A program made the position numbers and the translations under genes. The notes under the pieces are model-generated. The model made no database searches, was not told the origin of the DNA, and saw nothing but the letters and a program-made list of their open reading frames with translations. 42,010 nucleotides of DNA. Source: an uncultured Ruminococcus sp. (GTDB lineage: Bacteria > Bacillota > Clostridia > Oscillospirales > Ruminococcaceae). Shown piece after piece: positions 1 through 23,823 of the stretch. Location of the stretch: NCBI GenBank assembly GCA_902781565.1, contig CACZJT010000003.1, forward strand, positions 9,114 to 51,123, written 5' to 3'. Position 1 is the stretch's first letter. The number at the start of each line of letters is the position of its first letter.

Positions 1-20
1 GTACAAGCTGTGCTTGTACC

Positions 21-98
21 CACGGCTGCGGTCGTTTTCCTTGCACTGTGAAATTTTCTCTCGAAATCTTTATGCTGCTATTTTCTTGGATTGCTATA
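21..98. repeat. Partial copy of MITE-like inverted-repeat element (left edge)
   Basis: These 78 bases are the exact reverse complement of 34950-35027, the left half of the complete 161-bp element. The element's 20-bp end TATTTTCTTGGATTGCTATA lies at 79-98, about 40 bp downstream of the hypD stop. Inward of position 21 the sequence differs from the other copy: bases 1-19 form a small palindrome, GTACAAGC-TGT-GCTTGTAC. The rest of this copy lies outside the window. Perfect identity between two distant copies suggests recent spread or gene conversion. Confidence 0.85.
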
Positions 99-138
99 AG
101 TGGTAAACCGTTTATCAAATATTCCGAATCCCGAATTG

Positions 139-1191
139 CTAATTATTGTCGCTGTATTGGTAGTATGCCGCGCAGGCGCCCTCGTCGGAGACCATGCAGG
201 CGCCGATGGGGTGCAGGGGCGTGCAGACCTTGCCGAAAACCTTGCAGTCCGAGGGCTTGCACTTGCCCTGCAATACGTCGCCGCAGCGGCAGGCGGGGTT
301 GGGTCTGCCCTTGATCTCGGGCATGGCGAACTTGATACGCGCGTCATAGTCGGCGTACTCGGGGCGCAGCTTCATTCCCGACATTGGTATGAGCCCCAGC
401 CCGCGCCACTCGCTGTCGCAGGGTTCCATGACACGCTCCATGAGCTCCATTGCCTGCCTGTTGCCCTCGTCGGTGACGACGCGGGTGTAGCAGTTGCGGA
501 AGAACGGCTCGCCCTTTTCGAGCAGCTTTATCGTGACAGCCATAGCCGTTATCAGCTCGCTCGCCGTGAAGCCCGCGACAACGCCCGAAACGCCCTTTTC
601 CTCGCAGAGCTTTATACACGCCGAATTGCCCGTAATGGCGTTGACGTGTCCCGGATAGAGGAAAGCGTCGGCGCTGCCGATCAGAGCGTTGTAGGCATTT
701 GGCATAGTCTTGTTTGCGGTCAGAAGCGAGAAGTTTTTAAGCCCTGCCGCCTTAGCCTGCTCCGCCGCAAGACACGCCGAAGGCGTGGTGGTCTCAAAGC
801 CTACCGCAAGGAACACTACCTGTCTGTCGGGGTTCTCTTTGGCTATCTCCACCGCGTCGAGGGGCGAGTAAACGGGGCGTATCTCCGCACCCTTCGCCCG
901 CGCTCCCGCAAGGCTCATCTCCGTCCCGGGAACACGGATAAGGTCGCCGAAGGTACAGACTATACATCCCTTTTCGAGCGCTAACCATATCGCTTCGTCG
1001 ATAAATCCCACCGCCGTCACGCAGACGGGACAGCCGGGACCCGAGATAAGGTCAATGCTCTCGGGGAGAAGCTTTCGCAGTCCTATACGGAATATCTCGT
1101 GGGTGTGCGTGCCGCAGACCTCCATTATGCGGAGGGGTCTGCCGCTGTAACCCGTGATGATGTCCCGCGCTTTCTTTACGCTTTCCTTCAT
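139..1191 (-). CDS. hypD: HypD, iron-sulfur scaffold for Fe(CN)2CO assembly
   Basis: This is a 350-aa protein of usual HypD length. HypD forms the core of the HypCD complex, on which the Fe(CN)2CO group of [NiFe] hydrogenases is assembled in the cytoplasm. Three family signatures are intact: CGTHTHE at residues 26-32, GPGCPVC at 51-57 with the redox thiol pair, and a C-terminal Cys-rich region with the pattern CRCG, C, C, then CTPLHPIGAC that ligates the [4Fe-4S] cluster. The start ATG overlaps the hypC stop in an ATGA arrangement, so the two are translationally coupled. It is the last gene of the minus-strand cluster, and no terminator is visible before the repeat at 21-98. The identification is secure. 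The hydrogenase it would normally serve is not in the window. Confidence 0.97.
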   Translation of the reverse strand: MKESVKKARDIITGYSGRPLRIMEVCGTHTHEIFRIGLRKLLPESIDLISGPGCPVCVTAVGFIDEAIWLALEKGCIVCTFGDLIRVPGTEMSLAGARAKGAEIRPVYSPLDAVEIAKENPDRQVVFLAVGFETTTPSACLAAEQAKAAGLKNFSLLTANKTMPNAYNALIGSADAFLYPGHVNAITGNSACIKLCEEKGVSGVVAGFTASELITAMAVTIKLLEKGEPFFRNCYTRVVTDEGNRQAMELMERVMEPCDSEWRGLGLIPMSGMKLRPEYADYDARIKFAMPEIKGRPNPACRCGDVLQGKCKPSDCKVFGKVCTPLHPIGACMVSDEGACAAYYQYSDNN

Positions 1192-1397
1192 GATAAGCTC
1201 TCCATAAGGATATCGGCTTCGTCATCCTCGTCCTGAGTTATCTTCGCTATCGCAACGCCTGCGTGTACCATGACGAAATCGCCCGGCTCCAGGTCTTCGA
1301 GTATCCCCGCGCTGACCTCGCGCTTTGCGCCGCTTGCGTCTATAAGCGCGGTGCCGTCCTTAACGTTTACAACTCTTGCAGATAATCCTACACACAT
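1188..1397 (-). CDS. hypC: HypC/HybG-family maturation chaperone
   Basis: This 69-aa protein has the essential N-terminal Cys2 (after Met removal the N-terminal cysteine binds the iron) and the conserved VHAGVA motif with His45. HypC carries the Fe(CN)2CO unit on HypD and normally delivers it to the hydrogenase large subunit. The usual N-terminus is close to MCLAIPG. Here it is MCVGLSA, so the surface that meets the client protein differs from textbook HypC. The ribosome binding site GGAGG lies 7-9 nt before the ATG. It overlaps hypD by 4 nt and is separated from hypF by an AT-rich insert carrying a NUDIX gene. Confidence 0.93.
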   Translation of the reverse strand: MCVGLSARVVNVKDGTALIDASGAKREVSAGILEDLEPGDFVMVHAGVAIAKITQDEDDEADILMESLS

Positions 1398-1477
1398 GAT
1401 GATACCTCCGCTATTTCAATTCGTGATCCGTAATTATTATATCCCATTTTCACAAATGTTCCAAAATAAATCAGTAT

Positions 1478-1903
1478 TTATCTAATATTCCAGGTTTGCT
1501 CTATGGCCCAACTTTGCATTTCCAAATACATTTTCCCTTTTATATCTTCAAATCTCACATATTTAAATTCATGATCAGGCTCCACAGGCTCCTTGACCTT
1601 ATTCAGAAGTCTTCCAAGATAGTATTTTTGTATTGGATGGAAATAGCCTATGGTAGGATGAAGCATATATGCTTCCGCAGATCCGACTTCTTTAACTATT
1701 TCTACTTCATATCCTGCCTCTTCAATGCATTCTCTCTTAATGCACTGAAAATCGGACTCACCAGAATCCAAGCCGCCTCCCAACAAGAAAAATCCCTTAG
1801 GAGTTTCTACAACCCCTACCTCATCTCCTCTAATTGGAATAATATATGCACCTTGCCTGTCATAATATTTCTCGTGTTCCTTCTTGCCAAAAATCTTATA
1901 CAT
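1478..1903 (-). CDS. NUDIX hydrolase
   Basis: This is a 141-aa NUDIX-fold protein. The Nudix box is visible as GGLDSGE followed seven residues later by REC-IEEAGY, matching GX5EX7REUXEEXGU, so metal binding and pyrophosphohydrolase chemistry should be intact. The substrate cannot be told from sequence; small stand-alone members act on nucleotides or (d)NTP-like compounds. The gene sits between hypF and hypC on the same strand but its base composition is clearly more AT-rich than both neighbours, and it has AT-rich spacers of about 70-80 bp on each side. That suggests a later insertion into the hyp cluster rather than a core maturation gene. Start ATG is preceded by AGAGGT. Confidence 0.88.
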   Translation of the reverse strand: MYKIFGKKEHEKYYDRQGAYIIPIRGDEVGVVETPKGFFLLGGGLDSGESDFQCIKRECIEEAGYEVEIVKEVGSAEAYMLHPTIGYFHPIQKYYLGRLLNKVKEPVEPDHEFKYVRFEDIKGKMYLEMQSWAIEQTWNIR

Positions 1904-1971
1904 ATTTACCTCTATAAATTCCGATTTATCTTATCGACAACACGAAAACAAAGAATGACTTATATTTTTGC

Positions 1972-4317
1972 TCACGCATCAAGCATTACCCCATACGCCG
2001 CCTGTCCCACGCAGATACCTCCGTCATTGGGTGGGATAAGGCTGTGCAAGAGCACACGGAAACCGTTTGCTTCAAGCTGTTCTTTTGTCAAGCGCACAAG
2101 CAGTCTGTTCTGGAAAACTCCGCCGCTCAGGGCGATTTCATTGAACCCCGTTTTATCGCGCATTGCCGTACAGGCAAGCTGTATATCTTCGGCAAGCGCA
2201 TAATGAAACTCATATGCGAGCCTGCCCTTGTCCTCGCCGTCAAGAAAACGCTTTGCAATTTCCGAAACGAGGGTGTTCGTGTCGATAATGATACCGTCGC
2301 TTTGGGTGACACGTCGGGACAGTCCGCAGGCGGTTTTGCCGTTCGCGCGTTCAAAGCGCTCCGCAGCGGTCATGAGCGCGGTGGAAGCTTCGCCCTCGAA
2401 AGTGGAAGCCTTGCGTATACCCAGCACCGCCGATACCGCGTCGAAAACACGCCCCATGCTCGTGGAGCGGACGGCGTTCAAGCCCTTGTCAGCCATTACC
2501 GATTGCAGACGGAATGTCTTTTCATCGCAGAGCCCCAGCCGTATGCACATCTCGGCGGGGTCGGACTCCTGCCCCTTTTTACCGCTTTCCGCGCGGAGAA
2601 TCTGCACCGCTATACGCCAGCCCTCCTTCGAGGACAGGTCGCCGCCCACCTGCATGAATGGCGTTATATGACCCTCGCGGACAAATCCGTGATAGCTGCA
2701 CACCATAAGCTCACCGCCCCAGATAGTGCCGTCATCGCCGTAGCCCGTGCCGTCAAAGCTCACGCCTATGACCACCGAATCGGGGTCACAGCCGTTTCCA
2801 GCCATGCAGGAGAGGATATGCGCGAAATGGTGCTGAATCTTCACAAGCGGCAAGTCCGTTTCCTTGGACAGTTCTTCGGCAACGGTGACGGTGTTGTACA
2901 TCGGGTGAGTGTCGCAGACTATTACCTGCGGTTCGGCTTCAAGAAGCCTCAGCATTCGCCGCACCGACTCTTTGAGCGCGTTGACGGTGCGTATATCAGC
3001 CATATCTCCCACATAGGGCGAGGGGTACAACAGTCCGTTTTTTGCGACACAAAAGGTATTTTTCAGCTCTCCTCCTATCGCCAGCGCTTGCCTGTTATCG
3101 CAGCCCTTTATCATGACGGGCAGCGGCGCGAAGCCCCTCGAACGGCGTATCATGTAGGGCTTTCCGAACAGCTTGTCGCAGACCGAATCATCTGCGCGGA
3201 TAAGTATGCGCCTGTTGTGGGAGAGGATAAGGTCGCAGAAGCCGCCGATCTCCTTCACGGCGTCCTCGTCGCTTCGGCAGATCGGAGCGCCGCGGGCGTT
3301 TCCGCTGGTCATCACAAGACAGTCGGGCATTGGCTCTCCGTCGGGGTAGTCGAACAGGAGCATCTGAACGGGCGCATATGGGAGCATAACGCCCACCGTA
3401 TCGTTATCGGGGGCGATGATGTCGGTAAGCCGACCGCCCGAGCGTCGCTCCAGCAGGAGTATCGGCTTCTGCCAGCCCGTCAGCACTGCTTCGTCCTCAT
3501 CGGTGACTACGCACTCGCGGCGCACCGTATCCATGTCCCTCATCATGACCGCAAAGGGCTTCATGGGACGGTGTTTCAGTTCGCGGAGCCTTGCGACTGC
3601 GGCTTCATTCCCCGCGTCACAGCAGAGGTGAAAGCCGCCAATGCCCTTGACTGCCGCGATCTTTCCATCTATGATACTGCGGCGGACGAGCTTTATAGCT
3701 TCCGCGCCGCGAATGTCCGTGCCGACAATGTAGACCTCGGGTCCGCAGTCGTTGCAGCAGACGGGCTGAGCATCGTAGCGGCGGGTCTCGGGGCTGTGAT
3801 ACTCGGCGGCGCAGTCGGGACACATCGGAAAGTCAGCCATGCTCGTGCGTATGCGGTCATAAGGCATGGTGTCAAGTATCGTCAGCCGCGGACCGCATTG
3901 AGTGCAGTTGATAAACGGGTGCAGATAGCGCCTGTTATCGGGGTCGAAAAGCTCAGCGCGGCATTTGTCGCAGGTGGCGATGTCGGGGGAAACGAATATG
4001 TCCCCGTACTCCTTTTCGCTCTCGATTATTCGGAAATCCTCAAATACGGGACATTCATACTCATTACATTCGAGCGTGTCTATCCCCAGTATCACAGAGC
4101 GTTCGGGAGGGTGTTTCTTTATCTCGTCAAGATAGCGGTCTATCTGTTCGCGGCTTCCCTGTGCGTAGGCTTCCACATATGAGCCCTTGTTCGCCACCGT
4201 CCCGCGGACGCCGCATTTCTCGGCAGTCACCGCCATGAACGGACGGAAGCCCACGCCCTGAACTATCCCGAATATTTTCATCTTTACGGTCAAAATGGTC
4301 ATGGCGTTAATTCTCAT
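1972..4317 (-). CDS. hypF: HypF carbamoyltransferase (cyanide-ligand synthesis)
   Basis: This is a 781-aa full-length HypF. HypF uses carbamoyl phosphate and ATP to carbamoylate the C-terminal Cys of HypE, the first step to the CN ligands. Domains in order: acylphosphatase-like (about 10-95, with VQGVGFRPF), a double zinc finger (about 110-190, with CDKC, CTQCG, CPDC and CNDCG pairs), a YrdC-like domain (about 205-390), and a Kae1-like ATPase domain (about 400-775, with HHFAH and ALSGGVFQN). The first ATG overlaps the stop of the preceding nitrogenase-like gene by 11 nt. ATGs at 4302 and 4281 are alternative starts, and none has a strong ribosome binding site. The overlap implies translational coupling to that nitrogenase-like gene, an unusual partner for hypF. 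Confidence 0.97.
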   Translation of the reverse strand: MRINAMTILTVKMKIFGIVQGVGFRPFMAVTAEKCGVRGTVANKGSYVEAYAQGSREQIDRYLDEIKKHPPERSVILGIDTLECNEYECPVFEDFRIIESEKEYGDIFVSPDIATCDKCRAELFDPDNRRYLHPFINCTQCGPRLTILDTMPYDRIRTSMADFPMCPDCAAEYHSPETRRYDAQPVCCNDCGPEVYIVGTDIRGAEAIKLVRRSIIDGKIAAVKGIGGFHLCCDAGNEAAVARLRELKHRPMKPFAVMMRDMDTVRRECVVTDEDEAVLTGWQKPILLLERRSGGRLTDIIAPDNDTVGVMLPYAPVQMLLFDYPDGEPMPDCLVMTSGNARGAPICRSDEDAVKEIGGFCDLILSHNRRILIRADDSVCDKLFGKPYMIRRSRGFAPLPVMIKGCDNRQALAIGGELKNTFCVAKNGLLYPSPYVGDMADIRTVNALKESVRRMLRLLEAEPQVIVCDTHPMYNTVTVAEELSKETDLPLVKIQHHFAHILSCMAGNGCDPDSVVIGVSFDGTGYGDDGTIWGGELMVCSYHGFVREGHITPFMQVGGDLSSKEGWRIAVQILRAESGKKGQESDPAEMCIRLGLCDEKTFRLQSVMADKGLNAVRSTSMGRVFDAVSAVLGIRKASTFEGEASTALMTAAERFERANGKTACGLSRRVTQSDGIIIDTNTLVSEIAKRFLDGEDKGRLAYEFHYALAEDIQLACTAMRDKTGFNEIALSGGVFQNRLLVRLTKEQLEANGFRVLLHSLIPPNDGGICVGQAAYGVMLDA

Positions 4318-5335
4318 TATTAAGTCTCGCGCTTACGGCGTAGTGGGGAAAGTCGATGAACTCGCCCTCAAAGCCCTTTATCGCGCGTTTTAAGTCGCGG
4401 TCGGCGACTATCACATCGTAGTCGTTCTCGGCGATCTTCTCGTTCAGAACGTCCTCATCGGTTATGCGGAAATCGGTGTACATGGAATTGTTATCATCGA
4501 ACATGAACCATGTCGCGCAGTCCACGTCACAGCCCTTGATCTGTCCGCGCAGAGCGTTTGCGGCGATCTGCTGATTGATTATGAGCACACGCTTCTTTTT
4601 GAGCCCACGCACCTGCACGACCACGTTTTCGGGCAGGCAGGGATAGCCGAACTCGTAGGGCGTTCCGAAGCGTTTGTGGAGATACTCAGCCGCCTTCAAG
4701 CCCGAGGGCGAGATCACGAGCAGACGTTCGCACTCCCCTGCCCTGCGTATAGCGTCAAGTCCGCTGTCCATGCCGAAGCAGACATATTCGCCCTCCAAGC
4801 CGCCGACGATCTGCTCTGCGCGGGTGCAGCCCGTTTCGAGCGGGGTGGCTCCGAGAACTCCCGTAAGACCCTTTCTGACCTCGTGACCGTCCTCGGCAAA
4901 GCGCTCGAAGAGCTTCATATATGCCGCCTGCTCGCCCACATCGCAGAGCTTGGTGCCGTCGGTGGGGATCGCTATGCAGGGCAGTTTGGTCTTGCGTTCG
5001 GACATTCTTTCGAGGGCGTGGAAATCCGTTGCGATAACGGCGGGGACGGGCGTACCGACTATCGCGGTGAACTCCGCCCCGACCTGCGATGTTACCTTGA
5101 CAAGCTTTTCCACCAGCTTGTCATCGCGCCCGAGTATCGCGTCCATGTCCCGCAGTCCCGCACTGAAAAGCGCGGAGCGCTTCTCGTGCCAGCGGGGTTC
5201 ATCGAAGCCGCAGACATTGCCCGCGCAGCCGCCCGCGTCGCAGATAACGACTATCCCGCCCAGTTCGTAAAGCACCGAACAGGCGCCCGAATCATCGGGG
5301 GCTAAGGGTGATAAATGCTTTAGAAGACCCTTCAT
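4307..5335 (-). CDS. Nitrogenase component-1-like protein A
   Basis: This 342-aa protein belongs to the nitrogenase component-1 superfamily (NifD/K/E/N, BchN/B, CfbD and relatives) but is short. The N-terminus has SGACSVLYELGG, then a Cys-rich GGC-x4-CGFDEPRW (Cys19, 32, 37, 42). The equivalent region of protein B is clearly homologous (SGVCSALYELGG ... HDEPRW). Where B has Cys93 in AVCGSPMP, A has IVGTPVP with no Cys, so a third cluster ligand appears lost. The start is set at 5335 because AGGAGGT lies 8 nt upstream; the ATG at 5341 is too close to it. It lies 15 nt after hypE and overlaps hypF, so it is embedded in the hyp genes. Role unknown; a scaffold or catalytic subunit reduced by one of the NifH-like ATPases is plausible. 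Confidence 0.82.
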   Translation of the reverse strand: MKGLLKHLSPLAPDDSGACSVLYELGGIVVICDAGGCAGNVCGFDEPRWHEKRSALFSAGLRDMDAILGRDDKLVEKLVKVTSQVGAEFTAIVGTPVPAVIATDFHALERMSERKTKLPCIAIPTDGTKLCDVGEQAAYMKLFERFAEDGHEVRKGLTGVLGATPLETGCTRAEQIVGGLEGEYVCFGMDSGLDAIRRAGECERLLVISPSGLKAAEYLHKRFGTPYEFGYPCLPENVVVQVRGLKKKRVLIINQQIAANALRGQIKGCDVDCATWFMFDDNNSMYTDFRITDEDVLNEKIAENDYDVIVADRDLKRAIKGFEGEFIDFPHYAVSARLNNEN

Positions 5336-5350
5336 GTGCATGACCTCCTG

Positions 5351-6358
5351 TCAGCATATCCTCGGAAGAAGCTCTCCCTTGGGCTGTGGGAGGAGCGTCT
5401 GTGTGCCTATCTCCGTTTCCATGACTACCCTGCCCTTGTTGTCGGCTGTGACCTCGCCGATCACCGCCGCATTCGCGGAATACTTGCCCTCGCGGAGCTT
5501 TGCCACAAGCGCTTCGGCGTGCTCCTTCGGGGCGAAGATAACGAGCCTGCCCTCGCAGGCAAGGTACAGCGGCTCGAGCCCCAGCATTCCGCAGACGCCC
5601 TTAACGCGCTCGTCAACGGGAATGCTCTCGCGGTCAAGGCGTATGCCTACTCCGCTCTGTCCCGCGATCTCATAAAGCACCGTTCCTACGCCGCCGCGGG
5701 TGGCGTCGCGGATAACGTGGATATCGTCGGTCACTTCGTAAAGGCTCTCGACCGTATGCCAGAGCGGTGCGCAGTCGCTGTCAACGTCCGATTCGATGCC
5801 GTATTCGTCACGGGCAAGGAGTATCGTACAGCCGTGTCTTCCCACGTCACCCGTCACGATTATGGCGTCCCCGGGCTTCGCAAGGCTTCCCGATGTGTGG
5901 GCGTTCTCCATGATCTGTCCGACGCCCGTGGTGGTGATGAACACGCCGTCGCACTGACCCTTTCCCGCTACTTTGGTATCTCCCGCCACCAACTTTACGC
6001 CGACTTCGTTTGCGGTCTTTTCCATAGCGGCGGCGATCTTTTCGAGATCGTCAAGTGAAAAACCTTCCTCAATCACGAAAGCGCAGGTCAGGTAAAGGGG
6101 CTTGGCGCCCATGCAGGCGAGGTCGTTGACCGTACCGCAGATGGACAGCTTGCCGATATTTCCGCCGTTAAATTCCCAAGGGGAAACGATGAAGCCGTCA
6201 GTGGACATCGCTATCCTGCCTGCGGGCTGCGGAAGCACCGCCGCGTCATCGGCGGTAAATTCGGGGCTGTCGAAATGCGCCTTGAAAACCTTTTCTATAA
6301 GCTCGCTCGTCTGCGTGCCGCCCGCGCCGTGGGCGAGGGTCACTGTATTGTCAGCCAT
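5351..6358 (-). CDS. hypE: HypE, cyanide-ligand donor
   Basis: This is a 335-aa protein of the PurM/SelD-like ATPase family. HypE dehydrates the carbamoyl group placed on its C-terminal Cys by HypF to a thiocyanate, then gives CN to iron on HypCD. The last residues are PRIC, the diagnostic acceptor tail, so the protein should be active. The ATP/Mg motifs ADDAAV near the N-terminus and GDTKV are present, as is the Gly-rich DATRGGVGT segment. The start is chosen at 6358 because GGAGG lies 8 nt upstream; the ATG at 6373 lacks one. It is flanked by a NifH-like gene (24-nt gap) and a component-1-like gene (15-nt gap) rather than by hydrogenase genes. Confidence 0.97.
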   Translation of the reverse strand: MADNTVTLAHGAGGTQTSELIEKVFKAHFDSPEFTADDAAVLPQPAGRIAMSTDGFIVSPWEFNGGNIGKLSICGTVNDLACMGAKPLYLTCAFVIEEGFSLDDLEKIAAAMEKTANEVGVKLVAGDTKVAGKGQCDGVFITTTGVGQIMENAHTSGSLAKPGDAIIVTGDVGRHGCTILLARDEYGIESDVDSDCAPLWHTVESLYEVTDDIHVIRDATRGGVGTVLYEIAGQSGVGIRLDRESIPVDERVKGVCGMLGLEPLYLACEGRLVIFAPKEHAEALVAKLREGKYSANAAVIGEVTADNKGRVVMETEIGTQTLLPQPKGELLPRIC

Positions 6359-6382
6359 TGGTAATTCCTCCAAGCAATAGTA

Positions 6383-7138
6383 TTATTTATCTTCTTCAAT
6401 GAGCTTCCTTGCCAGCGCAAAAAAGCGCTTCGAGGTCTCGCATTCGGGGTCGCCCTCTATGACCGTTTTCCCCATGTCCTCGAACCTGATGATATCGTCG
6501 GAACGCGGTATATCGGCGGTTATCTCAAGCCCCGTTTTTTCCGCAAATGCGCGGACTTTCTCCTCCTCGTTCTCCACGTTGCGGCGGTTCATTATCACTC
6601 CGCGCACCTTGGCGTAGCTCCTGTCCTCGAAATTCTTCACGGCGCTGTTGATGTTGTTCGCCGCGTAGAGAGCCATCTTCTCACCCGAGGTGACGATAAG
6701 CACCTGCTCAGCGTAGCCCTCCCGAATCGGCGCGGCAAATCCGCCGCACACAACGTCGCCCAGCACATCGTAGAGCACCACATCGGGCTTGTACCTCTCG
6801 AAAAGCTCCAGCTGTTCGAGAAGATTGAAGGTCGTGATTATCCCCCGACCCGCACAGCCCAGCCCGGGTGTGGGACCTCCCGTTTCTATGCAGAGTATCC
6901 CTCCGAAGCCTATGCGCGAGATGTCCTCTATCCGTTCGGGGTCGTCCTCATGCTCGCGGAGGTAGTCCATTACGGGCTGCAAAGGTTTGCCGCCGAGAAG
7001 ATTTATGGTCGAGTCGGCTTTCGGGTCGCAGCCTATCTGTATGACTCGTTTCCCCAAACTCGCAAAGGCGGCGGCAAGGTTCGCGGTGCAGGTGGATTTT
7101 CCTATGCCGCCCTTGCCGTAAAGTGCTATTTTTATCAT
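6383..7138 (-). CDS. NifH-like ATPase/reductase 1
   Basis: This 251-aa protein is related to the nitrogenase Fe protein (NifH/BchL/CfbC superfamily), a homodimer that couples ATP hydrolysis to low-potential electron transfer through a bridging [4Fe-4S] cluster. The P-loop GKGGIGKST is at about 8-16. Both cluster ligands are conserved: Cys95 in GLGCAGRG and Cys131 in [11 protein letters not shown]. It is shorter than NifH of diazotrophs (about 275-295 aa), as in divergent groups of the family. The ribosome binding site AAGGAG precedes the ATG by about 8 nt. It is separated from component-1-like gene B by two palindromic repeats and followed closely by hypE. It is unlikely to serve nitrogen fixation because no nifB, nifE or nifN is present. 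Confidence 0.93.
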
Positions 7139-7162
7139 CTGAAATGCTCCTTATTTTGAATA

Positions 7163-7227
7163 GGGGACGGTCGCAAGTGAATTTGGCTCGTTTCACGAGC
7201 CAAAGGCGACCTTACCCCCAAGCCCCC
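7163..7227. repeat. Palindromic repeat, copy 1
   Basis: This 65-bp unit begins GGGGACGGTCGC and ends GGCGACCTTACCCCCA plus a C-run. It folds as a hairpin: outer GGTCGC/GCGACC, inner TTTGGCTCG/CGAGCCAAA with loop TTTCA. It is nearly identical to the copy at 7238-7302 and closely similar to 7988-8053, which lies inside a coding sequence. It sits between component-1-like gene B and NifH-like gene 1, where it could act as an mRNA stability or processing hairpin. Confidence 0.85.
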
Positions 7228-7237
7228 GGTTTTGAAT

Positions 7238-7302
7238 GGGGGACGGTCGCAAGTGCCTTTGGCTTGTTTCACGAGCCAAAGGCGACCTTACCCCAAGCCC
7301 CC
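7238..7302. repeat. Palindromic repeat, copy 2
   Basis: This is a 65-bp unit in direct orientation to copy 1, 10 bp after it, ending 4 bp from the stop codon of component-1-like gene B. The hairpin core is TTTGGCTTG/ACGAGCCAAA. It differs from copy 1 at few positions, and changes such as CTCG to CTTG keep pairing through G-T wobble, consistent with an RNA or single-strand DNA hairpin. Confidence 0.85.
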
Positions 7303-7306
7303 GATC

Positions 7307-8509
7307 TCAGAACGGAATATCACAATAGATCAGGTCTTTCATATCCCGCTCAAAGCACCGTCCGCTGAATGCGAAATGGGGCAGCTCGATGAGCCGCGTT
7401 CCCCGCGGGACTATGTACCTGTACAGCGGGTCGGCTATGACCGTTTTCGGGGCGAGGTCATGAAGCGCACGCTCTATGTCCTCCTCTGCCGAAAGCGTGA
7501 GATCGTAGTCGGCGAGTATCTCCCTGTCGGTGGGGAGAGGGCAGATGACCCTTGCATGAGTGCCATTCTCGTGCCATAAAGCCGAAGCCAGCGACACGGC
7601 TCCGATACTCTCGCCGATAATGACGATATCGCACGGCTCACCGCCGCGCTCGTTCACGGTGTCGCATTCCTTGTCCTCTGCCGCCCAATTGAGGTAACAC
7701 TTGACGCGCTCGGCGTATTTCTTCCCGAAAGGCACTCCGCATACGTAGGGTATGCCGAATCTCTCCTTCATATACTTCGCCGCCGCAAAGCCCGAAAAGC
7801 TCACCACAAGGTTCACCCTCGCCGACGCCGCGCGGCGTATCTCATCAAGACTGCTCCCCATCGCAAGGCAGGACACGTACTCAAAGCCGCTCTCGGCGAC
7901 AAAGCGCTTCATGCTGTCCATAGTACCGCGCCACGGGAAGTCCAAAGGGGTCATGCCGAGGATATTCACGCCAATGTTATCCGAAATGGGGGACGGTCGC
8001 TGTAGGGTTTGGCTCATTTCATGATTCAAAGGCGACCTTACCCCCAAGCCCCCTTTTGGACAGTCGGTCACGAACTCCCGCACGATGTCGAGAAAGGCTT
8101 CGCTCGCGCCCTCGATGTAAGAGCGCGTGCCGTTGGTGTGCATTCCGAAAGTGCGTATTCCCGAGCGGGCTTCTATCTCCGCGGCTACAGCGTCGAAATC
8201 AACGCCCGTCATCATCGGCATGGGCGAACCGCAGACCGCTATGAATGCGGGGGCTCTGTCCCTTGCCGCCGATACCACATCGAAGATCAGCTTTTCGTCG
8301 TCGCCCATTATGGCGTCCATTTCGGTAAGCGCCGAGATGTAAATGTCCGACTGCATATCGTACCAGCGGGGCTCGTCGTGGGTGGCGTAGGTGGAATTGC
8401 AGCCCGAAGCGTCGTGGGTCACGGTCATTCCGCCCAGTTCGTAAAGCGCCGAGCATACCCCCGAGGTGTCAGCCGAGTAGCAGGGGATTATCCTTGAAAC
8501 ATTTTTCAT
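7307..8509 (-). CDS. Nitrogenase component-1-like protein B, with repeat-derived insert
   Basis: This 400-aa component-1-like protein is a clear paralogue of protein A. Candidate cluster ligands are Cys10, Cys19 in SGVCSALYELGG, Cys37 in DASGC and Cys93 in AVCGSPMP, so the three-cysteine half-site typical of P-cluster-type subunits is more complete than in A. The start is set at 8509 from GGGGAGG 9 nt upstream; the longer ORF start at 8548 lies inside the preceding gene. Residues about 151-177 are encoded by a palindromic repeat (7988-8053) inserted in frame at a loop: protein A runs straight through this point (ERFAEDG..GVLGATPLE), while B has the extra segment before NIGVNILGMTPLD. It follows protein C by 16 nt and probably pairs with it as an alpha/beta-type complex. 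Confidence 0.85.
   Translation of the reverse strand: MKNVSRIIPCYSADTSGVCSALYELGGMTVTHDASGCNSTYATHDEPRWYDMQSDIYISALTEMDAIMGDDEKLIFDVVSAARDRAPAFIAVCGSPMPMMTGVDFDAVAAEIEARSGIRTFGMHTNGTRSYIEGASEAFLDIVREFVTDCPKGGLGVRSPLNHEMSQTLQRPSPISDNIGVNILGMTPLDFPWRGTMDSMKRFVAESGFEYVSCLAMGSSLDEIRRAASARVNLVVSFSGFAAAKYMKERFGIPYVCGVPFGKKYAERVKCYLNWAAEDKECDTVNERGGEPCDIVIIGESIGAVSLASALWHENGTHARVICPLPTDREILADYDLTLSAEEDIERALHDLAPKTVIADPLYRYIVPRGTRLIELPHFAFSGRCFERDMKDLIYCDIPF
7988..8053. repeat. Palindromic repeat, copy 3, inside a coding sequence
   Basis: This is the same element as at 7163-7302 (GGGGGACGGTCGC ... GGCGACCTTACCCCCAAG) but lying inside component-1-like gene B. Its inner stem is more degraded (GGCTCATTTCATGATTC). 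On the coding strand it adds about 22 in-frame codons reading GGLGVRSPLNHEMSQTLQRP, without a stop. This is analogous to the palindromic elements known to insert in frame in Rickettsia proteins. Confidence 0.85.
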
Positions 8510-8525
8510 ACCGCAGTCCTCCCCC

Positions 8526-9842
8526 TTAGCCCGTAAGACAGCTCGCACAGCCGAAGCCTTTGAGACTTATGACCGTTTTCCTGTCCTTCTTGTTTAGATA
8601 TGCGTCCTCTATGAGCGCCGCCAGCTTTGTAATGCCCGAGAAGCCGTAAAGCCCCGCGTTCAGAATTATGTTCACGAAGTTGTCGGTCGCAAAATAGTAA
8701 GCCGCCTTCTGACCTATCGCAAGAACAAGCTCGTGAGGTTCGTGACAGACGTTCAGCATATTGACATTCGCCGCCGCGAATATCCGAATATCGGGGCGTT
8801 CGGCTTTAAGGTACTCAAACGCCGCAGTTTCCTCCCCTGCGCTGTCGGCTATAATGTAGCGCACGTTGAAGCCGTGCCGACACAGAAGCGCCGCAAGCTC
8901 GAAGGGACGGGAAACTGCCGTAAAATCAATTGCTACCGAGATATCGCCCACCGTGTCATGTGCTTTTTCGAGTGCGTTTTCGCAAGCCTCGATATCTTCC
9001 TTAAAATCGGGGACGTCCGCTTCGAGGGCAGCACACAGGCGCGAATAATTGTCCTTTATCGTGTCATAGTCGAAGCTGTTCGGCAGGTAAAGATGTTCCC
9101 CGCCGAAGCGCTCCTTCATGACCTCCCCTGCGCCGTAAGTGTACGGAAAATAGGTCAGATCCAAAAAGCTCTCCGACATTTGCAGGTATTCTTCATAGCT
9201 GTTGCAGAGCGTGATATCCCGCAGAGCAAAGCCGTTCTCTCGAATGATCTTCACAAGCTCGCTGTCCTCGTCGGTGGGACGGTCGTTTCCGATGATGTTC
9301 ACCGATCGGCAGTTTATCGGAAGCGGTCCGAGCGCCGCATAGAGCTGCTGCGCCATTTTCGCCACGGGGGAAATGGTCGTGCGCATGGTCGGGGTCATGT
9401 AGCAGTCTACGAATGTTATATCGGGAAATTTTTCGGACAGTTCATCTATTATAGACCCGAAGTCCGCGCCCGAAAACAAGTGTATGCAGCTCAGATAAAG
9501 CAGTATCACGGGCGGGCGTTCCGGCAGCTTTCCGATGATCTCCGACACGCCGTCAACTATGTCGCTTTCGAGAGTGCCGTCGAACATATCCTCCTCCGAT
9601 ACGGATATCCAGCTCATGCGGTCGAGGGCGAACATCTCCGCCGCAGTCAGGATAACGCCCCGCAGACAGCCCTGCGCACAGGCGAATATCTGATGCGCCT
9701 TCGGAACGAGCATTCCCGTGTGGACGATGTTCCACATACCCCGCGCGGGGGTGTTGTATTCAAGCCCGCTCTCGAAAAACTCCCTAACATCGGTGTCGGC
9801 TATGAGCTTCGAGGGGGGCTTGACGAATGACCTCTTGTTCAT
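8526..9842 (-). CDS. Nitrogenase component-1-like protein C
   Basis: This 438-aa protein has the three-lobed component-1-like layout: an N-terminal cluster region, a central domain with Rossmann-type stretches, and a C-terminal domain. Candidate metal ligands are Cys55 and Cys59 in FACAQGCLRG and Cys119 in YLSCIHLF, spaced as in the cluster-binding half of NifD/K relatives. The C-terminus ends GCASCLTG, an extra CxxC pair. The true start is the ATG at 9842, 1 nt after the upstream stop (9844), with GGAGGTG 6-7 nt before it. The longer ORF reads back into nifH-like gene 2. It lies directly behind NifH-like 2 and in front of B, so NifH2-C-B resembles a reductase plus two-subunit catalytic component. 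The substrate is unknown. Confidence 0.83.
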   Translation of the reverse strand: MNKRSFVKPPSKLIADTDVREFFESGLEYNTPARGMWNIVHTGMLVPKAHQIFACAQGCLRGVILTAAEMFALDRMSWISVSEEDMFDGTLESDIVDGVSEIIGKLPERPPVILLYLSCIHLFSGADFGSIIDELSEKFPDITFVDCYMTPTMRTTISPVAKMAQQLYAALGPLPINCRSVNIIGNDRPTDEDSELVKIIRENGFALRDITLCNSYEEYLQMSESFLDLTYFPYTYGAGEVMKERFGGEHLYLPNSFDYDTIKDNYSRLCAALEADVPDFKEDIEACENALEKAHDTVGDISVAIDFTAVSRPFELAALLCRHGFNVRYIIADSAGEETAAFEYLKAERPDIRIFAAANVNMLNVCHEPHELVLAIGQKAAYYFATDNFVNIILNAGLYGFSGITKLAALIEDAYLNKKDRKTVISLKGFGCASCLTG

Positions 9843-9843
9843 C

Positions 9844-10602
9844 TCACACCTCCCCGAAGGTCGCAAGTACCGCATTTGCCGCCGCCGCGAGCTGTTCCGC
9901 TGCGGCGCTTTCGGGACAGACCTCGAACACGGGCTTGCCCGCTTTTTCGGCGAGAGGTATCTCGGTGCAGCGGTCGATGTCGGCAATCACGGTAGTGCCG
10001 AAATCCTTCGCCAGCTCTGCCGCCGCCTTGTCCTCGTCCTCAACTCCGCGGCGGTTAAGGATAATGCCTCCCAACCGCGCATAGCCGCGCCCCTTGAAAT
10101 TGTCCACCGCCATGCAGATATTCGCAGCCGCGTAAACGGACATCTTCTCGCCCGAGGTCACGACGATCACTTCGTCGGCATAGCCCTTGCGCATGGGCAT
10201 GGAGAAACCGCCGCATACAACGTCACCCAAGACGTCATAGATCACCACATCGGGCTTGTACACATCGTAAGCCCCAAGTGTTCCGAGAGTTTCGAGGGCG
10301 TTGATTATCCCTCGCCCCGCACAGCCGAGCCCGGGTACGGGTCCGCCCGCTTCCACGCACTTTACGCCGTAAGCGCCGTCAAAGACTATCTCGCCGAGGG
10401 TCAGGGACTTGCCTTTTTCGCGGGTGAGCTGCAAGACGGTCGGTATGCGCTCCCCGCCCCGCAGCAGCGAGGTAGAATCGGCTTTGGGGTCGCAGCCTAT
10501 CTGCATGACCGAAAGCCCGCTTTTTGCAAGCGCCGCCGAGATGTTGCATGAAATAGTAGATTTCCCTATGCCGCCCTTGCCGTATATAGCGATCTTTTTC
10601 AT
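9844..10602 (-). CDS. NifH-like ATPase/reductase 2
   Basis: This 252-aa second Fe-protein homologue has the P-loop GKGGIGKST at about 9-17, Cys94 in GLGCAGRG and Cys130 in [11 protein letters not shown], so nucleotide and [4Fe-4S] binding should be intact. The ATG at 10602 is preferred over the upstream TTG at 10608 because GGAGT lies 8 nt before it. It is similar to but clearly divergent from NifH-like 1 (different segments at 50-85), so the two are not recent duplicates and probably dock with different component-1 partners. It follows hydE by 57 nt and is tightly coupled to component-1-like C. Confidence 0.93.
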   Translation of the reverse strand: MKKIAIYGKGGIGKSTISCNISAALAKSGLSVMQIGCDPKADSTSLLRGGERIPTVLQLTREKGKSLTLGEIVFDGAYGVKCVEAGGPVPGLGCAGRGIINALETLGTLGAYDVYKPDVVIYDVLGDVVCGGFSMPMRKGYADEVIVVTSGEKMSVYAAANICMAVDNFKGRGYARLGGIILNRRGVEDEDKAAAELAKDFGTTVIADIDRCTEIPLAEKAGKPVFEVCPESAAAEQLAAAANAVLATFGEV

Positions 10603-10659
10603 ATCCAAACACTCCAGAAATAATAAATTCGCCGCAAAGCGACACCTTCAATTCCTACT

Positions 10660-11727
10660 TCATGATCCGGAATCCACAAATTCCCCAAAGTCTCCCCTTG
10701 TCACAGCGACCTCACAGCCTATGGACTTCATTCGGGCTTGCAGGCAGAACTTGCAGTCGGCGGTAGTATCCTCGGTGCAGATCTTGTTGTCGTAGAGCAT
10801 ATATTTCTTCCGCACCGCCGTCGGAGAGAGATTCGGCATTATGACGTTCGCGCCGTGGAGAACGCCCTGCTCGCGCCCGTCGGGGCGTATCGTTCCGAGA
10901 GCCGTGGTCGCGGGGAGCAGCACGTTCGGGAGCATTATCCTCGTGAGCGCCAGCAGGAACAGCGTCAGCTCATAGGAGCCCTTCGGCTTGTCGCGGAAGT
11001 CCGTGTCCTTGTGGGGCAGGAAGGGTCCCATGCCGACCATTTGGGGCTGAAACTCCGCAAGGAACAGCATATCCTCCGCGAGGTGTTCCGTCCTCTGGTA
11101 CGGAGCGCCGATCATCATTCCCGCGCCCGTCTGGAAGCCCAGCTCTTTGAGGTCGCGCAGGCACTTCATTCTGTGCTCGAAGGACAAAAACGACGGGTGT
11201 AATTTTTCGTACAGTTCCTTACTGGCAGTCTCATGGCGGAGCAGATACCTGTCCGCGCCCGCTTCCCGCAGGAGCGCGTATTCCTCACGCTCCTGCTCGC
11301 CTATCGAGAGGGTCACGGCGCAGTCGGGGTGAGCGGATTTTATACTGCGGACGATCTCAGCCATACGAGCGGGCGGGTAAGCTCCGTCCTCGCCGCTTTG
11401 AAGCACGAATGTGCGGTAACCCGTTTCGTAGCCCTCATCGCAGCATTCGAGTATCTCCTCCTCGGTGAGCCTATAGCGCTGTGCGTTTTTGTTCGAGCGC
11501 CTGATCCCGCAGTAATAGCAGTCGTTCTTGCAGTAGTTGGAGAACTCCACTATCCCGCGTATGAATATCTTGTTGCCGAAGCGCTTTTTCCGCAGGCTGT
11601 TGGCGATAGAAGCCGCATAAGCGCGTTCCTCATCGCCGTGACCGTCGATGAGCTCCACCCATTCGGAGCGGGAGAGGGTCTTTTCGGCGTTCAGTTTGTC
11701 TATAAGTTCTTTCAGATGTTCGTTCAT
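10660..11727 (-). CDS. hydE: HydE-type radical SAM enzyme
   Basis: This is a 355-aa radical SAM protein. The SAM-cluster motif is Cys66-x3-Cys70-x2-Cys73 in NYCKNDCYYCG, followed by the HydE-typical IRRSNKN. Other HydE signatures are VLQSGED, LRHETA, GMGPFLPH, LPATTALGTI and GANVIMPN, plus C-terminal Cys residues (CKFC) near the optional second cluster. In [FeFe] hydrogenase maturation HydE acts on the iron-cysteine synthon made by HydG. The start at 11727 has GAGGG 9 nt upstream; the longer ORF start at 11823 would read through the terminator hairpin. hydF, hydG and hydA are absent from the window. HydE here heads the nif-like/hyp run, which raises the possibility of a dedicated role in that system. 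Confidence 0.95.
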   Translation of the reverse strand: MNEHLKELIDKLNAEKTLSRSEWVELIDGHGDEERAYAASIANSLRKKRFGNKIFIRGIVEFSNYCKNDCYYCGIRRSNKNAQRYRLTEEEILECCDEGYETGYRTFVLQSGEDGAYPPARMAEIVRSIKSAHPDCAVTLSIGEQEREEYALLREAGADRYLLRHETASKELYEKLHPSFLSFEHRMKCLRDLKELGFQTGAGMMIGAPYQRTEHLAEDMLFLAEFQPQMVGMGPFLPHKDTDFRDKPKGSYELTLFLLALTRIMLPNVLLPATTALGTIRPDGREQGVLHGANVIMPNLSPTAVRKKYMLYDNKICTEDTTADCKFCLQARMKSIGCEVAVTRGDFGEFVDSGS

Positions 11728-11756
11728 AACGGTATCCCTCGGTTCGATAAAAGGGT

Positions 11757-11802
11757 AAAAAAACGGACAGCCACTCCGCCCAAAAGCGGATATGGCTGTC
11801 CC
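11757..11802 (-). terminator. Intrinsic terminator or attenuator ahead of hydE
   Basis: On the minus strand GGACAGCCA pairs with TGGCTGTCC around an inner TCCGC/GCGGA helix with a 6-nt loop, followed by seven T residues. It lies 100 nt after the regulator gene and only 30 nt before the hydE start, so it either ends the regulator transcript or works as a conditional attenuator controlling the 11-kb cluster. Confidence 0.88.
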
Positions 11803-11805
11803 GCA

Positions 11806-11821
11806 GACCCATAGGAGGGTC
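11806..11821 (-). promoter_or_regulatory. Leader hairpin upstream of hydE terminator
   Basis: A small hairpin GACCC/GGGTC (7-nt loop) lies 4 nt upstream of the terminator stem on the minus strand. Together with the roughly 100 nt between the regulator stop and the terminator it makes a structured leader. I do not recognise it as a known riboswitch class. Function inferred from position only. Confidence 0.4.
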
Positions 11822-11902
11822 ATATAGTCAAGCGATATCCGGCTTCTACCTCAGGCGCGGAAAGCGGCTTTGGTATCAGGCGAAATGTGTTTCGTTATGT
11901 TT

Positions 11903-12151
11903 TCAGTTTTCGGGAGCGTTCACCGTCTTGGCGGTGACTCCGTCTATCCTGCCTATAGCGCCCGCCAGCTTATTTATGGCGTCCTGCGGAGCATCTATGG
12001 CAATGCTTATTATGTTTATCCCCTTGGCACGGTAAGGCACGCCCATTCTGCCGATAATGTACTTGTCGTAATCGTGCAGGAGCGCATTGACGCTCGTTGC
12101 CGCGGAGGGGTCTTTGACGATTATCGCAATGACCGCGACTCTTGTATCCAT
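11903..12151 (-). CDS. TM1266-type iron-only hydrogenase system regulator
   Basis: This 82-aa, single-domain ferredoxin-fold (ACT/NikR-C-like) protein reads MDTRVAVIAIIVKD, then an HDYDKYIIGRMGVPY segment and INIISIAID. These features match the small TM1266 family found beside HydE/HydF/HydG genes and annotated as a putative iron-only hydrogenase system regulator. The family has no DNA-binding domain, so it may sense a small molecule or act as a protein-level regulator. The start at 12151 has AAAGGGAGTG about 9 nt upstream; an in-frame ATG at 12178 lacks this. It is the first gene after the strong promoter at 12193-12221, and adjacency to hydE supports the assignment. Confidence 0.85.
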   Translation of the reverse strand: MDTRVAVIAIIVKDPSAATSVNALLHDYDKYIIGRMGVPYRAKGINIISIAIDAPQDAINKLAGAIGRIDGVTAKTVNAPEN

Positions 12152-12192
12152 ATATAGTACACTCCCTTTCGGAAACAATACCTATCTTGTAT

Positions 12193-12221
12193 ATTATATC
12201 ATTCTTTAGTCAGAATGTCAA
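12193..12221 (-). promoter_or_regulatory. SigA promoter of the regulator/hydE/nif-like/hyp cluster, with dyad in spacer
   Basis: Minus strand TTGACA (12216-12221), a 17-bp spacer and TATAAT (12193-12198) form a perfect consensus promoter. The spacer contains the dyad ATTCT-GACTAA-AGAAT (12201-12216), well placed for a repressor that would block RNA polymerase. It is about 40 bp upstream of the regulator start and is the only strong promoter I see for the whole cluster. Confidence 0.85.
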
Positions 12222-12324
12222 GTCCGGGTGTATTTTTTTGTACATATCTACAATAACAAAAGGCTTATACTGTGATATGTGTCAATTAGCTTATGCTAAC
12301 TTATTGTCTTTCTGCCCGTAAAGA

Positions 12325-12358
12325 ATCCCCTCCGCGCCATTCGGGACGCAAAGGGGAT
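12325..12358 (-). terminator. Probable terminator of the ribose-phosphate pyrophosphokinase gene
   Basis: ATCCCCT pairs with AGGGGAT, with a further GCG/CGC pairing inside, 45 nt after the stop codon on the minus strand. The T tail is short (TTCTTTA), so termination strength is uncertain. Confidence 0.55.
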
Positions 12359-12402
12359 CACTTGTCCGATATATTACGATGCTTATACCGCGCAGAGAAC
12401 GA

Positions 12403-13560: not shown

Positions 13561-13660
13561 CGGATTATTACCTCATTTCTCCGTCCAAATACCGCACAAT
13601 GCGGCACCCGCCGCTGACGGTCCCGCGGCAGGTCAATATTGTCGTAAGCATTCTTATCTT

Positions 13661-13689
13661 ATTATACACTATCCGACAATATTTTACAA
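13661..13689 (-). promoter_or_regulatory. Promoter of prs
   Basis: Minus strand TTGTAA (13684-13689), a 17-bp spacer and TATAAT (13661-13666) lie about 100 bp upstream of the prs start. No other structure was seen in the 13561-13791 gap between the divergent genes. Confidence 0.7.
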
Positions 13690-13791
13690 TACCTTTTTTC
13701 AACAAATTTTATTTAACGTGCAGTATATCACTTGTGAAGTTATCCGACGCTGACCAATTGACCGTACTCGTAAAAAAAGTGTCACGGACCA

Positions 13792-13820
13792 TTGACATAT
13801 CCTCGGAACTCTGCTATAAT
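13792..13820 (+). promoter_or_regulatory. Promoter of GH26 gene 1
   Basis: TTGACA (13792-13797), a 17-bp spacer and TATAAT (13815-13820) form a perfect consensus. It lies 36 bp upstream of the ATG, so the leader is very short. Confidence 0.85.
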
Positions 13821-13855
13821 AGTTGAAAACATTTTGCGAAAAAGGAGCATTTGCT

Positions 13856-21332: not shown

Positions 21333-21371
21333 CTATTTATCTCCTTACGGAAAAGAAAGAAATACTTCTCC

Positions 21372-22619: not shown

Positions 22620-22637
22620 AGCCTCACCTTCACGCTG

Positions 22638-23567: not shown

Positions 23568-23699
23568 AATGTTATCCCTCCGTGTTCTTTATGAGTATAC
23601 ACTATATATAATACATCTGAATTTATTATACGTCAAGGAGATATGTGACTTTTTTACATTCGGTTCATATTTAACTTGCTTATACTCTTTGTTATGAAT

Positions 23700-23728
23700 A
23701 TTATACCACATTTCTCTCTATTTGTAAA
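23700..23728 (-). promoter_or_regulatory. Promoter of MoxR-DUF58-transglutaminase operon
   Basis: Minus strand TTTACA (23723-23728), a 17-bp spacer and TATAAT (23700-23705). The adjacent 23729-23823 contains no clear element; it separates this promoter from the divergent GH26 promoter. Confidence 0.7.
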
Positions 23729-23823
23729 ATGCCGATTTCTCATACTGCTATACCTTTGGGTTATAGCAAAAATGTCCGGAATGTGAGAAATGCCGAAAAA
23801 AATGCAAATCCTGCATAAAGCGA

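Follow-up and report, generated by a model that had tools for sequence, protein, structure and literature searches.

The locus considered here raises the question of why Hyp proteins, nitrogenase-like proteins and the H-cluster maturase HydE should be encoded side by side. It lies in a window of 42,010 nt (the whole stretch of DNA analyzed) from an uncultured Ruminococcus sp. (GCA_902781565.1, contig CACZJT010000003.1, positions 9,114-51,123; window position 1 is G000:C3:9114, G000 being the genome of the window). HydG is regarded as the source of the CO and CN of the H-cluster (PMC9431212). Our comparative genomics shows a conserved cluster that is mutually exclusive with HydG, in genomes that retain HydE and HydF, and in which an importer can be exchanged for the second nitrogenase-like set and the Hyp proteins. 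Based on its gene content, we consider it probable that the cluster encodes a HydG-independent pathway in which HypCDEF and two nitrogenase-like sets together provide the Fe-CO-CN unit from which the H-cluster is built.

Gene content of the cluster

HypC, HypD, HypE and HypF, two NifH-like ATPases, three component-1-like proteins (A, B and C) and HydE are all encoded on the minus strand, and the profile scores and coordinates confirm the original prediction to this effect (cut-offs for Hyp, HydE and TM1266 are those of NCBIfam). Intergenic gaps within the cluster run from -11 to 80 nt, with two exceptions of 175 and 168 nt. Two further genes come in addition to those originally predicted: the first gene of the cluster, at 11903-12151, which encodes a TM1266-family [FeFe]-hydrogenase system regulator (minus strand, ATG at 12151; TIGR03959, 108 bits, cut-off 60.8; PF21699), and a fourth component-1-like gene, D, just outside the window. 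A sigma-70-type promoter-like site is predicted on the minus strand at 12193-12221 (TTGACA at 12221-12216, a 17-nt spacer and TATAAT at 12198-12193), 41 nt ahead of the TM1266 start codon. An Rfam search of window positions 1-14000 gave no match.

Downstream of TM1266, the minus strand encodes the radical SAM H-cluster maturase HydE (10660-11727; TIGR03956, 546 bits, cut-off 254.6), followed by the genes that we refer to as set 1, namely NifH1 (9844-10602; PF00142), A (8526-9842; PF00148) and B (7307-8509; PF00148), the last of which is by fold nearest to the DPOR B subunit. Set 2 consists of NifH2 (6383-7138; PF00142), C (4307-5341; PF00148) and D, which lies to the left of the window (G000:C3:7627-8940, locus L005), 311 nt past hypD. 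C is a paralogue of B (hhalign E 3e-70) and D a paralogue of A (E 9e-39). Interspersed with set 2 or following it on the same strand are HypE with its C-terminal cyanide-carrying PRIC motif (5351-6358; TIGR02124, 422 bits, cut-off 252), the carbamoyltransferase HypF (1972-4317; TIGR00143, 737 bits, cut-off 466), a NUDIX hydrolase-like gene that is perhaps a passenger (1478-1903; PF00293), HypC (1188-1397; TIGR00074, 54.6 against 48) and HypD (139-1191; TIGR00075, 416 bits, cut-off 193).

The nitrogenase-like proteins belong to the broad families and fall short of every curated subfamily that was searched. NifH2 and NifH1 score 299 and 284 bits with PF00142, and A, B and C score 70, 103 and 58 bits with PF00148 (cut-off 28.6). 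The two NifH-like proteins score below the nifH equivalog (318 and 294 against 394), CfbC (304 and 300 against 402) and BchL (211 and 186 against 345) cut-offs; A, B, C and D lie under every cut-off of the nif equivalog profiles, and the BchB score is 53 bits against 490. In a fold test, A and B were nevertheless assigned the nitrogenase component-1 fold, and the C profile matches NifE in the PDB (E 2e-8), as do those of A and B. Functional residues are well preserved. NifH1 C96 and C132 (numbered on the 254-aa ORF), which we take to be the 4Fe-4S cysteines, are kept in 71/71 aligned sequences and NifH2 C95 and C131 in 65/65, while the HydE CX3CX2C motif (52/52), HypE PRIC (32/32), HypC C2 (53/53) and HypD C26, C54 and C57 (50/50) are equally invariant.

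Recurrence of the cluster and mutual exclusion with HydG

Component-A loci were collected with two exact peptide patterns, and the best 80 of 178 confirmed stretches, many of them cut by contig ends, form the basis of all neighborhood counts. A profile was drawn from 17 of 18 fetched sequences (7999 candidates scored, 1973 passed, 120 of them listed), and matches with an internal stop were scored as present. The commonest gene order in the 80 loci is TM1266-HydF-HydE-NifH1-A-B-NifH2-D-C-HypF-C-D-E. NifH1 is found in 79 of them, B in 75, NifH2 in 67, TM1266 in 65, HypF and HydE in 59 each, HydF in 41 and HydG in none; for the 41 loci with 9 kb on either side, the counts are 39 for TM1266, 32 for HydE and 24 for HydF. 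Since these partners recur in 80 loci even though many contigs end early, the arrangement is not a matter of chance. When 20 short HydG-linked stretches were searched with nif-like, Hyp and importer queries, the TM1266 domain alone was found in common.

Component A follows HydF and avoids HydG. In a family sample of 237 genomes (HydF scored present at E <= 1e-60), the 123 HydF-bearing genomes divide into 96 with HydG over the cut-off, 20 with component A, none with both and seven with neither, and component A is absent from all 114 genomes lacking HydF. Two of the seven carry HydG fragments (G109, G232) and a third is 55% complete (G028), which leaves G103, G148, G176 and G234. A second set of 61 genomes, which overlaps the other genome sets (G001 and G066, both Ruminococcus sp. 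YE71, are apparently one genome, and likewise G217 and G062, R. albus KH2T6), holds 28 genomes with HydG, 10 with component A and none with both. Eight of the 10 genomes in this set that have HydF but no HydG over the cut-off bear component A, the other two being G010 and G028; conversely, component-A genomes G004 (88% complete) and G005 (56%) lack HydF over the cut-off. HydG over the cut-off was found in 0/26 component-A genomes, among them three strains of R. albus, R. bicirculans 80/3, C. ljungdahlii and C. ragsdalei. Both states, HydG and component A, are present inside each of four genera (g1, g95, g97 and g117). The replacement of HydG by the cluster is thus, as a reading of gene content, well supported in the genomes sampled.

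ThiH was considered as a hidden HydG and rejected: the 180-bit HydG-profile match in the genome of the window is ThiH (510 bits, cut-off 380), and many bearers of the cluster have no match of such strength.

The likely customer for the cluster is encoded elsewhere in the genome. The original prediction described a cluster without a hydrogenase, which is correct locally, but the same genome has a group A6 HydA [FeFe]-hydrogenase (854 bits, cut-off 765) on another contig and HydF on G000:C8 (548 bits, cut-off 325.6). The completeness of this genome is 87.7%, and we base the argument on related genomes (G001, 99%; G012, 98%). The [FeFe]-hydrogenase domain PF02906 is matched in 10/10 component-A genomes of the 61-genome set, with more than 250 bits in eight and more weakly only in G005 (56% complete) and G006 (89%). 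R. albus and C. autoethanogenum are both sources from which a bifurcating [FeFe]-hydrogenase has been isolated (PMC6288185).

HydE itself does not seem to have been specialized for the cluster. Between 61 cluster-linked sequences and 23 HydG-linked ones, among which a single gene appears twice (as L007 and as L148), one conservative class-specific position was found (I91 vs L, at the 85% level), and the idea of a specialized HydE was rejected. In a HydE tree built by a quick method, with SH-aLRT support only and long branches, cluster-linked HydE sequences do not form one group; those of L127, the BL-3/L096/L102 group and C. ljungdahlii (L140) lie among HydG-linked rows. HydE of the HydG-bearing genus mates G003, G007 and G011 is separate from that of the window, YE71 and others, which fits cassette exchange.

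These observations bear on a puzzle that the literature has left without a clear answer. PMC9431212 reports that, out of eight Clostridium acetogens, five possess HydE and HydF while HydG could not be detected; that HypCDEF come without HypA/B in C. ljungdahlii, C. ragsdalei, C. coskatii, AWRP and C. autoethanogenum; and that HydE and HydF alone give about 1% activation in vitro. Both C. ljungdahlii and C. ragsdalei carry the cluster and, if our reading is true, it would explain the missing HydG and the incomplete Hyp complement together.

A possible route to the H-cluster and its alternatives

The chemistry that we infer for the route would begin with HypF and HypE, which would convert carbamoyl phosphate to cyanide and transfer this ligand to iron bound by HypCD. 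Set 2 (NifH2 with C and D) would act as an ATP-driven low-potential donor, supplying electrons for ligand formation on HypCD; the ligand would most likely be CO, formed from CO2 or formate, after which an Fe-CO-CN unit would be released. Set 1 (NifH1 with A and B), with its DPOR- or NifEN-like build, may bind this unit, reduce or remodel it and pass it to HydE, with HydE and HydF completing and inserting the [2Fe] subcluster as usual. Fe(CN)2CO is richer in CN and poorer in CO than the HydG product, so the ligands would have to be rearranged. A finding in R. eutropha, where exogenous CO2 was excluded as the CO source (PMC12134894), counts against the proposed route.

The original prediction of a factory for a CN/CO-containing cofactor survives in so far as Fe(CN)/CO chemistry appears joined to nitrogenase-like redox proteins in genomes (G000, G001, G012, three R. 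albus strains and R. bicirculans 80/3) that lack a [NiFe] large subunit, although the customer is likely to be the [FeFe]-hydrogenase. That prediction had also named nif-like genes occurring regularly without hyp genes as an observation that would speak against it. Set 1 (NifH1-A-B) does occur regularly in this way, but an importer then replaces set 2 and Hyp. The importer is an ABC transporter of the FecCD type, in the iron-siderophore/corrinoid class, with a PF01032 permease, a PF01497 binding protein and a PF00005 ATPase. Its binding protein is found in 13/13 set-1-only loci and the permease and ATPase in 12/13, the contig ending in the remaining one (the G034 locus, L139, on a 3.3 kb contig that ends inside B, is excluded from the 13). 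In 2/2 loci scanned, the ATPase carries a fused TM1266 domain. HypD was found in 0/13 of the set-1-only genomes, and it follows that Hyp is not always needed. Neither permease nor binding protein occurs in the other 76 loci counted among the 80 (ATPase-only matches in three), 67 of which have NifH2; two set-1 loci without the importer, L096 and L099, have set 2 and Hyp elsewhere in the genome (L133, L134). Bacteria with set 1 but without Hyp may, on our proposal, take up the Fe-CO-CN unit through this transporter.

The best surviving alternative, which we nonetheless consider unlikely, is that set 1 by itself does the work of HydG, forming both ligands, while set 2, Hyp and the importer contribute something different, for instance iron. 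Set 1 is indeed the constant part, the importer class includes siderophore uptake, and nitrogenase iron proteins are able to reduce CO2 to CO. Against this, Hyp proteins with intact cyanide-making residues alternate with the importer, as the lack of HypD in the importer genomes attests, and this alternation fits the supply of an Fe-CO-CN unit better than iron uptake.

Two further explanations appear more doubtful still. The ligands could be supplied by a different radical SAM enzyme, whether ThiH or a divergent form of HydG, or be available as free CO and cyanide, leaving the cluster an accessory role in H-cluster maturation such as electron supply or repair. The genome of the window does encode ThiH, and an atypical radical SAM protein acting as HydG, or free diatomic ligands, are the alternatives offered for acetogens in PMC9431212. 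However, the HydG profile has one weak match each in R. bicirculans, C. ljungdahlii, C. ragsdalei and several others; in L089 and L140, the two loci that were read, this match is HydE, and ThiH is accordingly not a general solution. Component A and the absence of HydG are, moreover, strictly linked. About equally improbable is that the nitrogenase-like sets reduce some substrate of their own (for example a sulfur compound or a tetrapyrrole, as MAR, DPOR and CfbCD do) and that Hyp and HydE build a CN/CO metal site on them. This was the original reading, in which the cofactor was loaded on the nitrogenase-like proteins to give a new reductase, and it accounts neither for the distribution of component A (20/123 HydF-bearing genomes, 0/114 others, never with HydG) nor for HydF and TM1266 in the locus.

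The weakest alternative, that Hyp matures a [NiFe]-hydrogenase beside nitrogenase-like neighbors with another job, is very improbable given the recurrent order with HydE, HydF and TM1266, the lack of HypA or HypB among the proteins of the window's cluster and the absence of PF00374 from 20 of the 25 Hyp- or set-2-bearing genomes among 29 searched. Those without a [NiFe] large subunit include G000, G001, G012, three R. albus strains and R. bicirculans 80/3. PF00374 was matched in the other five, two of these matches being weak and partial; a large subunit is present in C. ljungdahlii, C. ragsdalei and C. muellerianum, where Hyp may serve it too, and weak partial matches were seen in G034, G077 and G078. 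A [NiFe] operon to the left of the window, which the original prediction had flagged as a possible user of the Hyp proteins, was not found in the 9.1 kb to the contig end (ORFs read, D profile-scanned). A [NiFe] role for Hyp is thus disfavored in most genomes searched.

Returning to the HydG-independent pathway, its fullest form is a tentative proposal, which we hold somewhat less probable than its opposite: a second natural H-cluster route in which HypCDEF, driven by an ATP-dependent nitrogenase-like reductase, would make a small Fe-CO-CN compound, to be converted into the HydE substrate by another enzyme of the nitrogenase-like type, while some gut bacteria would have abandoned its synthesis and would import the compound through a TM1266-coupled ABC transporter. 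Our search of open PMC papers brought up none that connects nitrogenase-like genes with the maturation of [FeFe]-hydrogenases, and the text of PMC12578642 contains no HydG, HydF or maturation words; the cluster of these gut and rumen bacteria is likely a further, hitherto undescribed way of building the H-cluster. Its bearers include rumen bacteria that degrade cellulose and acetogens that ferment gas, for which it is a candidate natural pathway without HydG. If the proposal is true, the nitrogenase family would gain a new job, and the dedicated nitrogenase-like reductase would also be the missing anaerobic CO source for Hyp chemistry; if the importer is read correctly, an organometallic building block would be cross-fed between cells.

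Comparison with known systems

The cluster shares features with several known systems and differs from each. HydE, HydF and TM1266 of classical HydE/HydF/HydG maturation are retained in cluster genomes, but HydG gives way to two nitrogenase-like sets with HypCDEF, or to an ABC importer. As in HypABCDEF maturation of [NiFe]-hydrogenases, HypC, D, E and F score over their cut-offs with the PRIC motif and scaffold cysteines intact, whereas here HypA/B are not part of the cluster, and the Hyp genes are tied to nitrogenase-like genes and in 20/25 genomes have no large subunit to mature. The NifE matches of A, B and C, the NifH-like partners and the two paralogous pairs recall the NifEN scaffold, although the cluster lacks NifB, its proteins score far under the nifE cut-off and its partner genes are Hyp and Hyd. 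DPOR (BchL/BchN/BchB) and other nitrogenase-like reductases likewise combine a NifH-like protein with two kinds of component 1, and B is nearest to DPOR by fold, yet the cluster proteins lie under the curated cut-offs and in a context of hydrogenase maturation rather than pigments. Finally, the set-1-only clusters share PF01032, PF01497 and PF00005 with importers of the BtuCDF/FecCD type, from which they differ in having an ATPase fused to TM1266 and encoded amid H-cluster maturation genes.

Organization and distribution of the gene cluster

The cluster in the studied Ruminococcus genome (2.87 Mb, completeness 87.7%) lies on the minus strand and reads, from right to left, TM1266, HydE, NifH1, A, B, NifH2, HypE, C, HypF, a NUDIX gene (window positions 1478-1903, between HypF and HypC), HypC and HypD. 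A, B and C are component-1-like; a fourth such gene, D, follows hypD just outside the window, which spans positions 9114-51123 of contig C3. We refer to NifH1, A and B as set 1 and to NifH2, C and D as set 2. TM1266 is preceded by a promoter-like site whose TTGACA and TATAAT elements are perfect and separated by 17 nt. HypC, HypD, HypE, HypF, HydE and TM1266 all score above curated cut-offs, and the nitrogenase-like proteins match Pfam families and reach none of the listed cut-offs for nitrogenase, DPOR or CfbC. Elsewhere, the genome carries a separate second nif-like set (contig C11, about 20389-24987; L116:3390-7988), consisting of genes for a NifB-like protein (272 bits, below cut-off), NifH (459, above cut-off) and NifD/E-like and NifK-like proteins. 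A large putative glutamate synthase ORF comes next.

A component A profile, applied via two exact peptide patterns to 84,980 species genomes, gave 178 places, the best 80 of which were retained as loci. Their hosts include Ruminococcus (R. albus three times, R. bicirculans), further Oscillospirales, Lentisphaerota, and Clostridium ljungdahlii, C. ragsdalei and C. muellerianum. The commonest order, TM1266-HydF-HydE-NifH1-A-B-NifH2-D-C-HypF-HypC-HypD-HypE, has every gene on the same strand and is complete in 22 of these loci; HydG occurs in none of the 80. In the three Clostridium loci, set 2 and Hyp come ahead of set 1, and HydE and HydF lie outside the locus. Lentisphaerota/Victivallales MAGs hold the cluster, or their contig's share of it, at L097, L105, L108, L111 and L112, which suggests transfer between phyla or a binning error.

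Mutual exclusion with HydG

The studied genome codes for a group A6 [FeFe]-hydrogenase, HydF (on a different contig from the cluster) and ThiH; at 87.7% completeness, it yielded neither HydG over cut-off nor a [NiFe] large subunit. The genus mates G001 (99% complete) and G012 (98% complete) contain hydrogenase, HydF, component A and HypD, and searches of both for HydG and the [NiFe] large subunit (PF00374) found neither. A second HydA-like protein of the studied genome (565 aa; contig C8, 29474-30085; L117:3695-5392) scores below the curated hydrogenase cut-offs and is perhaps of sensory type.

Across a family sample of 237 genomes, 20 contain component A and 99 contain HydG over cut-off, with no genome containing both. 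The 123 HydF-bearing genomes (E <= 1e-60) divide into 96 with HydG only, 20 with component A only and seven with neither (two with HydG fragments, one 55% complete, four others); component A is absent from all 114 HydF-less genomes. Fisher P for the exclusion is 1.8e-17, uncorrected for relatedness. Both states were found inside each of four genera, so the switch between HydG and the cluster occurred more than once. Another set of 61 genomes, which overlaps with the family sample and with the 26 bearers below, gave component A in 10, HydG in 28 and both in none. Ten of the 61 have HydF without HydG, and eight of these carry component A (exceptions G010 and G028). All ten component A genomes match the [FeFe]-hydrogenase family PF02906, eight strongly, and two (G004 and G005, incomplete) lack HydF over cut-off. 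HydG over cut-off was found in 0/26 genomes bearing component A, 25 of them reached via named loci.

Three genomes, G103 (L123), G148 (L122) and G176 (L121), have HydF and neither component A nor HydG over cut-off. An HydE-like gene (155 bits, below cut-off) adjoins HydF in G103, and the HydF of G148 and G176 is divergent (47-49% identity to the query); these are possibly a third state.

In a quick tree, HydE of HydG-bearing genus mates lies apart from that of the studied genome's kin, and the cluster-linked HydE do not form a single group. Comparison of 61 cluster-linked with 23 HydG-linked sequences gave a class-specific difference at one position, a conservative one. Based on this, cassettes seem to have been exchanged with HydE's job unchanged.

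A predicted importer in place of set 2 and Hyp

Thirteen loci carry set 1 only (G053, G075, G076, G091, G093, G100, G123, G153, G201, G215, G270, G282 and G288), and their genomes yielded neither HypD nor HydG over cut-off. A PF01497-type binding protein gene adjoins set 1 in all thirteen, and 12 also encode a permease of FecCD type together with an ABC ATPase; in the thirteenth the contig ends. Both loci scanned for it encode an ABC ATPase-TM1266 domain fusion (L098:7021-8154, L131:9266-10321). Nine loci, the query counted, align to this fusion over its full length, and the ATPase is separate in three. This unusual pairing ties the FecCD-type importer to [FeFe]-hydrogenase maturation.

Neither permease nor binding protein was found in the remaining 76 of the best 80 loci (67 with NifH2). 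G073 and G074 have set 1 alone at one locus, with no importer there, and set 2 plus Hyp at a second place; G034 has set 1 without HypD on a contig too short to show an importer or not. Given this distribution, the supplier that accompanies set 1 is either the importer or set 2 plus HypCDEF, and a simple reading is that both would hand it the same thing.

A proposed HydG-independent route to the H-cluster

The cluster bears on a published puzzle. In its account of maturation genes, PMC9431212 lists HydE and HydF with HydG undetectable in C. carboxidivorans, C. ljungdahlii, C. coskatii, AWRP and C. ragsdalei, and HypCDEF without HypA/B in the last four and C. autoethanogenum, which it credits with HydG on a motif basis. 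Its authors state there that the missing hydG has no straightforward explanation, and weigh either the involvement of an atypical radical SAM protein or the use of free ligands. The two of these species examined here, C. ljungdahlii (L107) and C. ragsdalei (L104), both carry the cluster. Bifurcating [FeFe]-hydrogenases of R. albus and C. autoethanogenum are described as isolated and characterised in PMC6288185, so such organisms form working H-clusters; that R. albus strain lies outside the genomes searched.

As PMC9431212 and PMC11736057 describe, HydG produces CO and CN, free or as an Fe(CO)2CN unit, and HydE and HydF complete the [2Fe] subcluster. With HydG absent, CO and CN must have another source. 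Hyp proteins build CO and CN ligands on iron, and most Hyp- or set-2-bearing genomes searched have no [NiFe]-hydrogenase for them to supply. PF00374 matched in 5/25 (in three genomes the match is fragmented and covers the greater part of the subunit, and in two it is weak and partial), and Hyp may therefore be shared in those five.

The review PMC12134894, where it treats ligand synthesis, calls the HypD electron donor and the CO source of anaerobes unknown, puts the requirement for CO2 reduction at about -530 mV plus ATP, and reports that exogenous CO2 was excluded as the CO source in R. eutropha. A NifH-like ATPase with a component-1-like partner, as encoded with Hyp, is what would be needed for such a step. 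Set 2 would drive ligand formation on HypCD. The Hyp product is Fe(CN)2CO and the HydG product Fe(CO)2CN, so this ligand count requires a rearrangement somewhere in the route. Set 1 would reduce or remodel the Fe-CO-CN unit for HydE, and its B subunit resembles the B subunit of DPOR.
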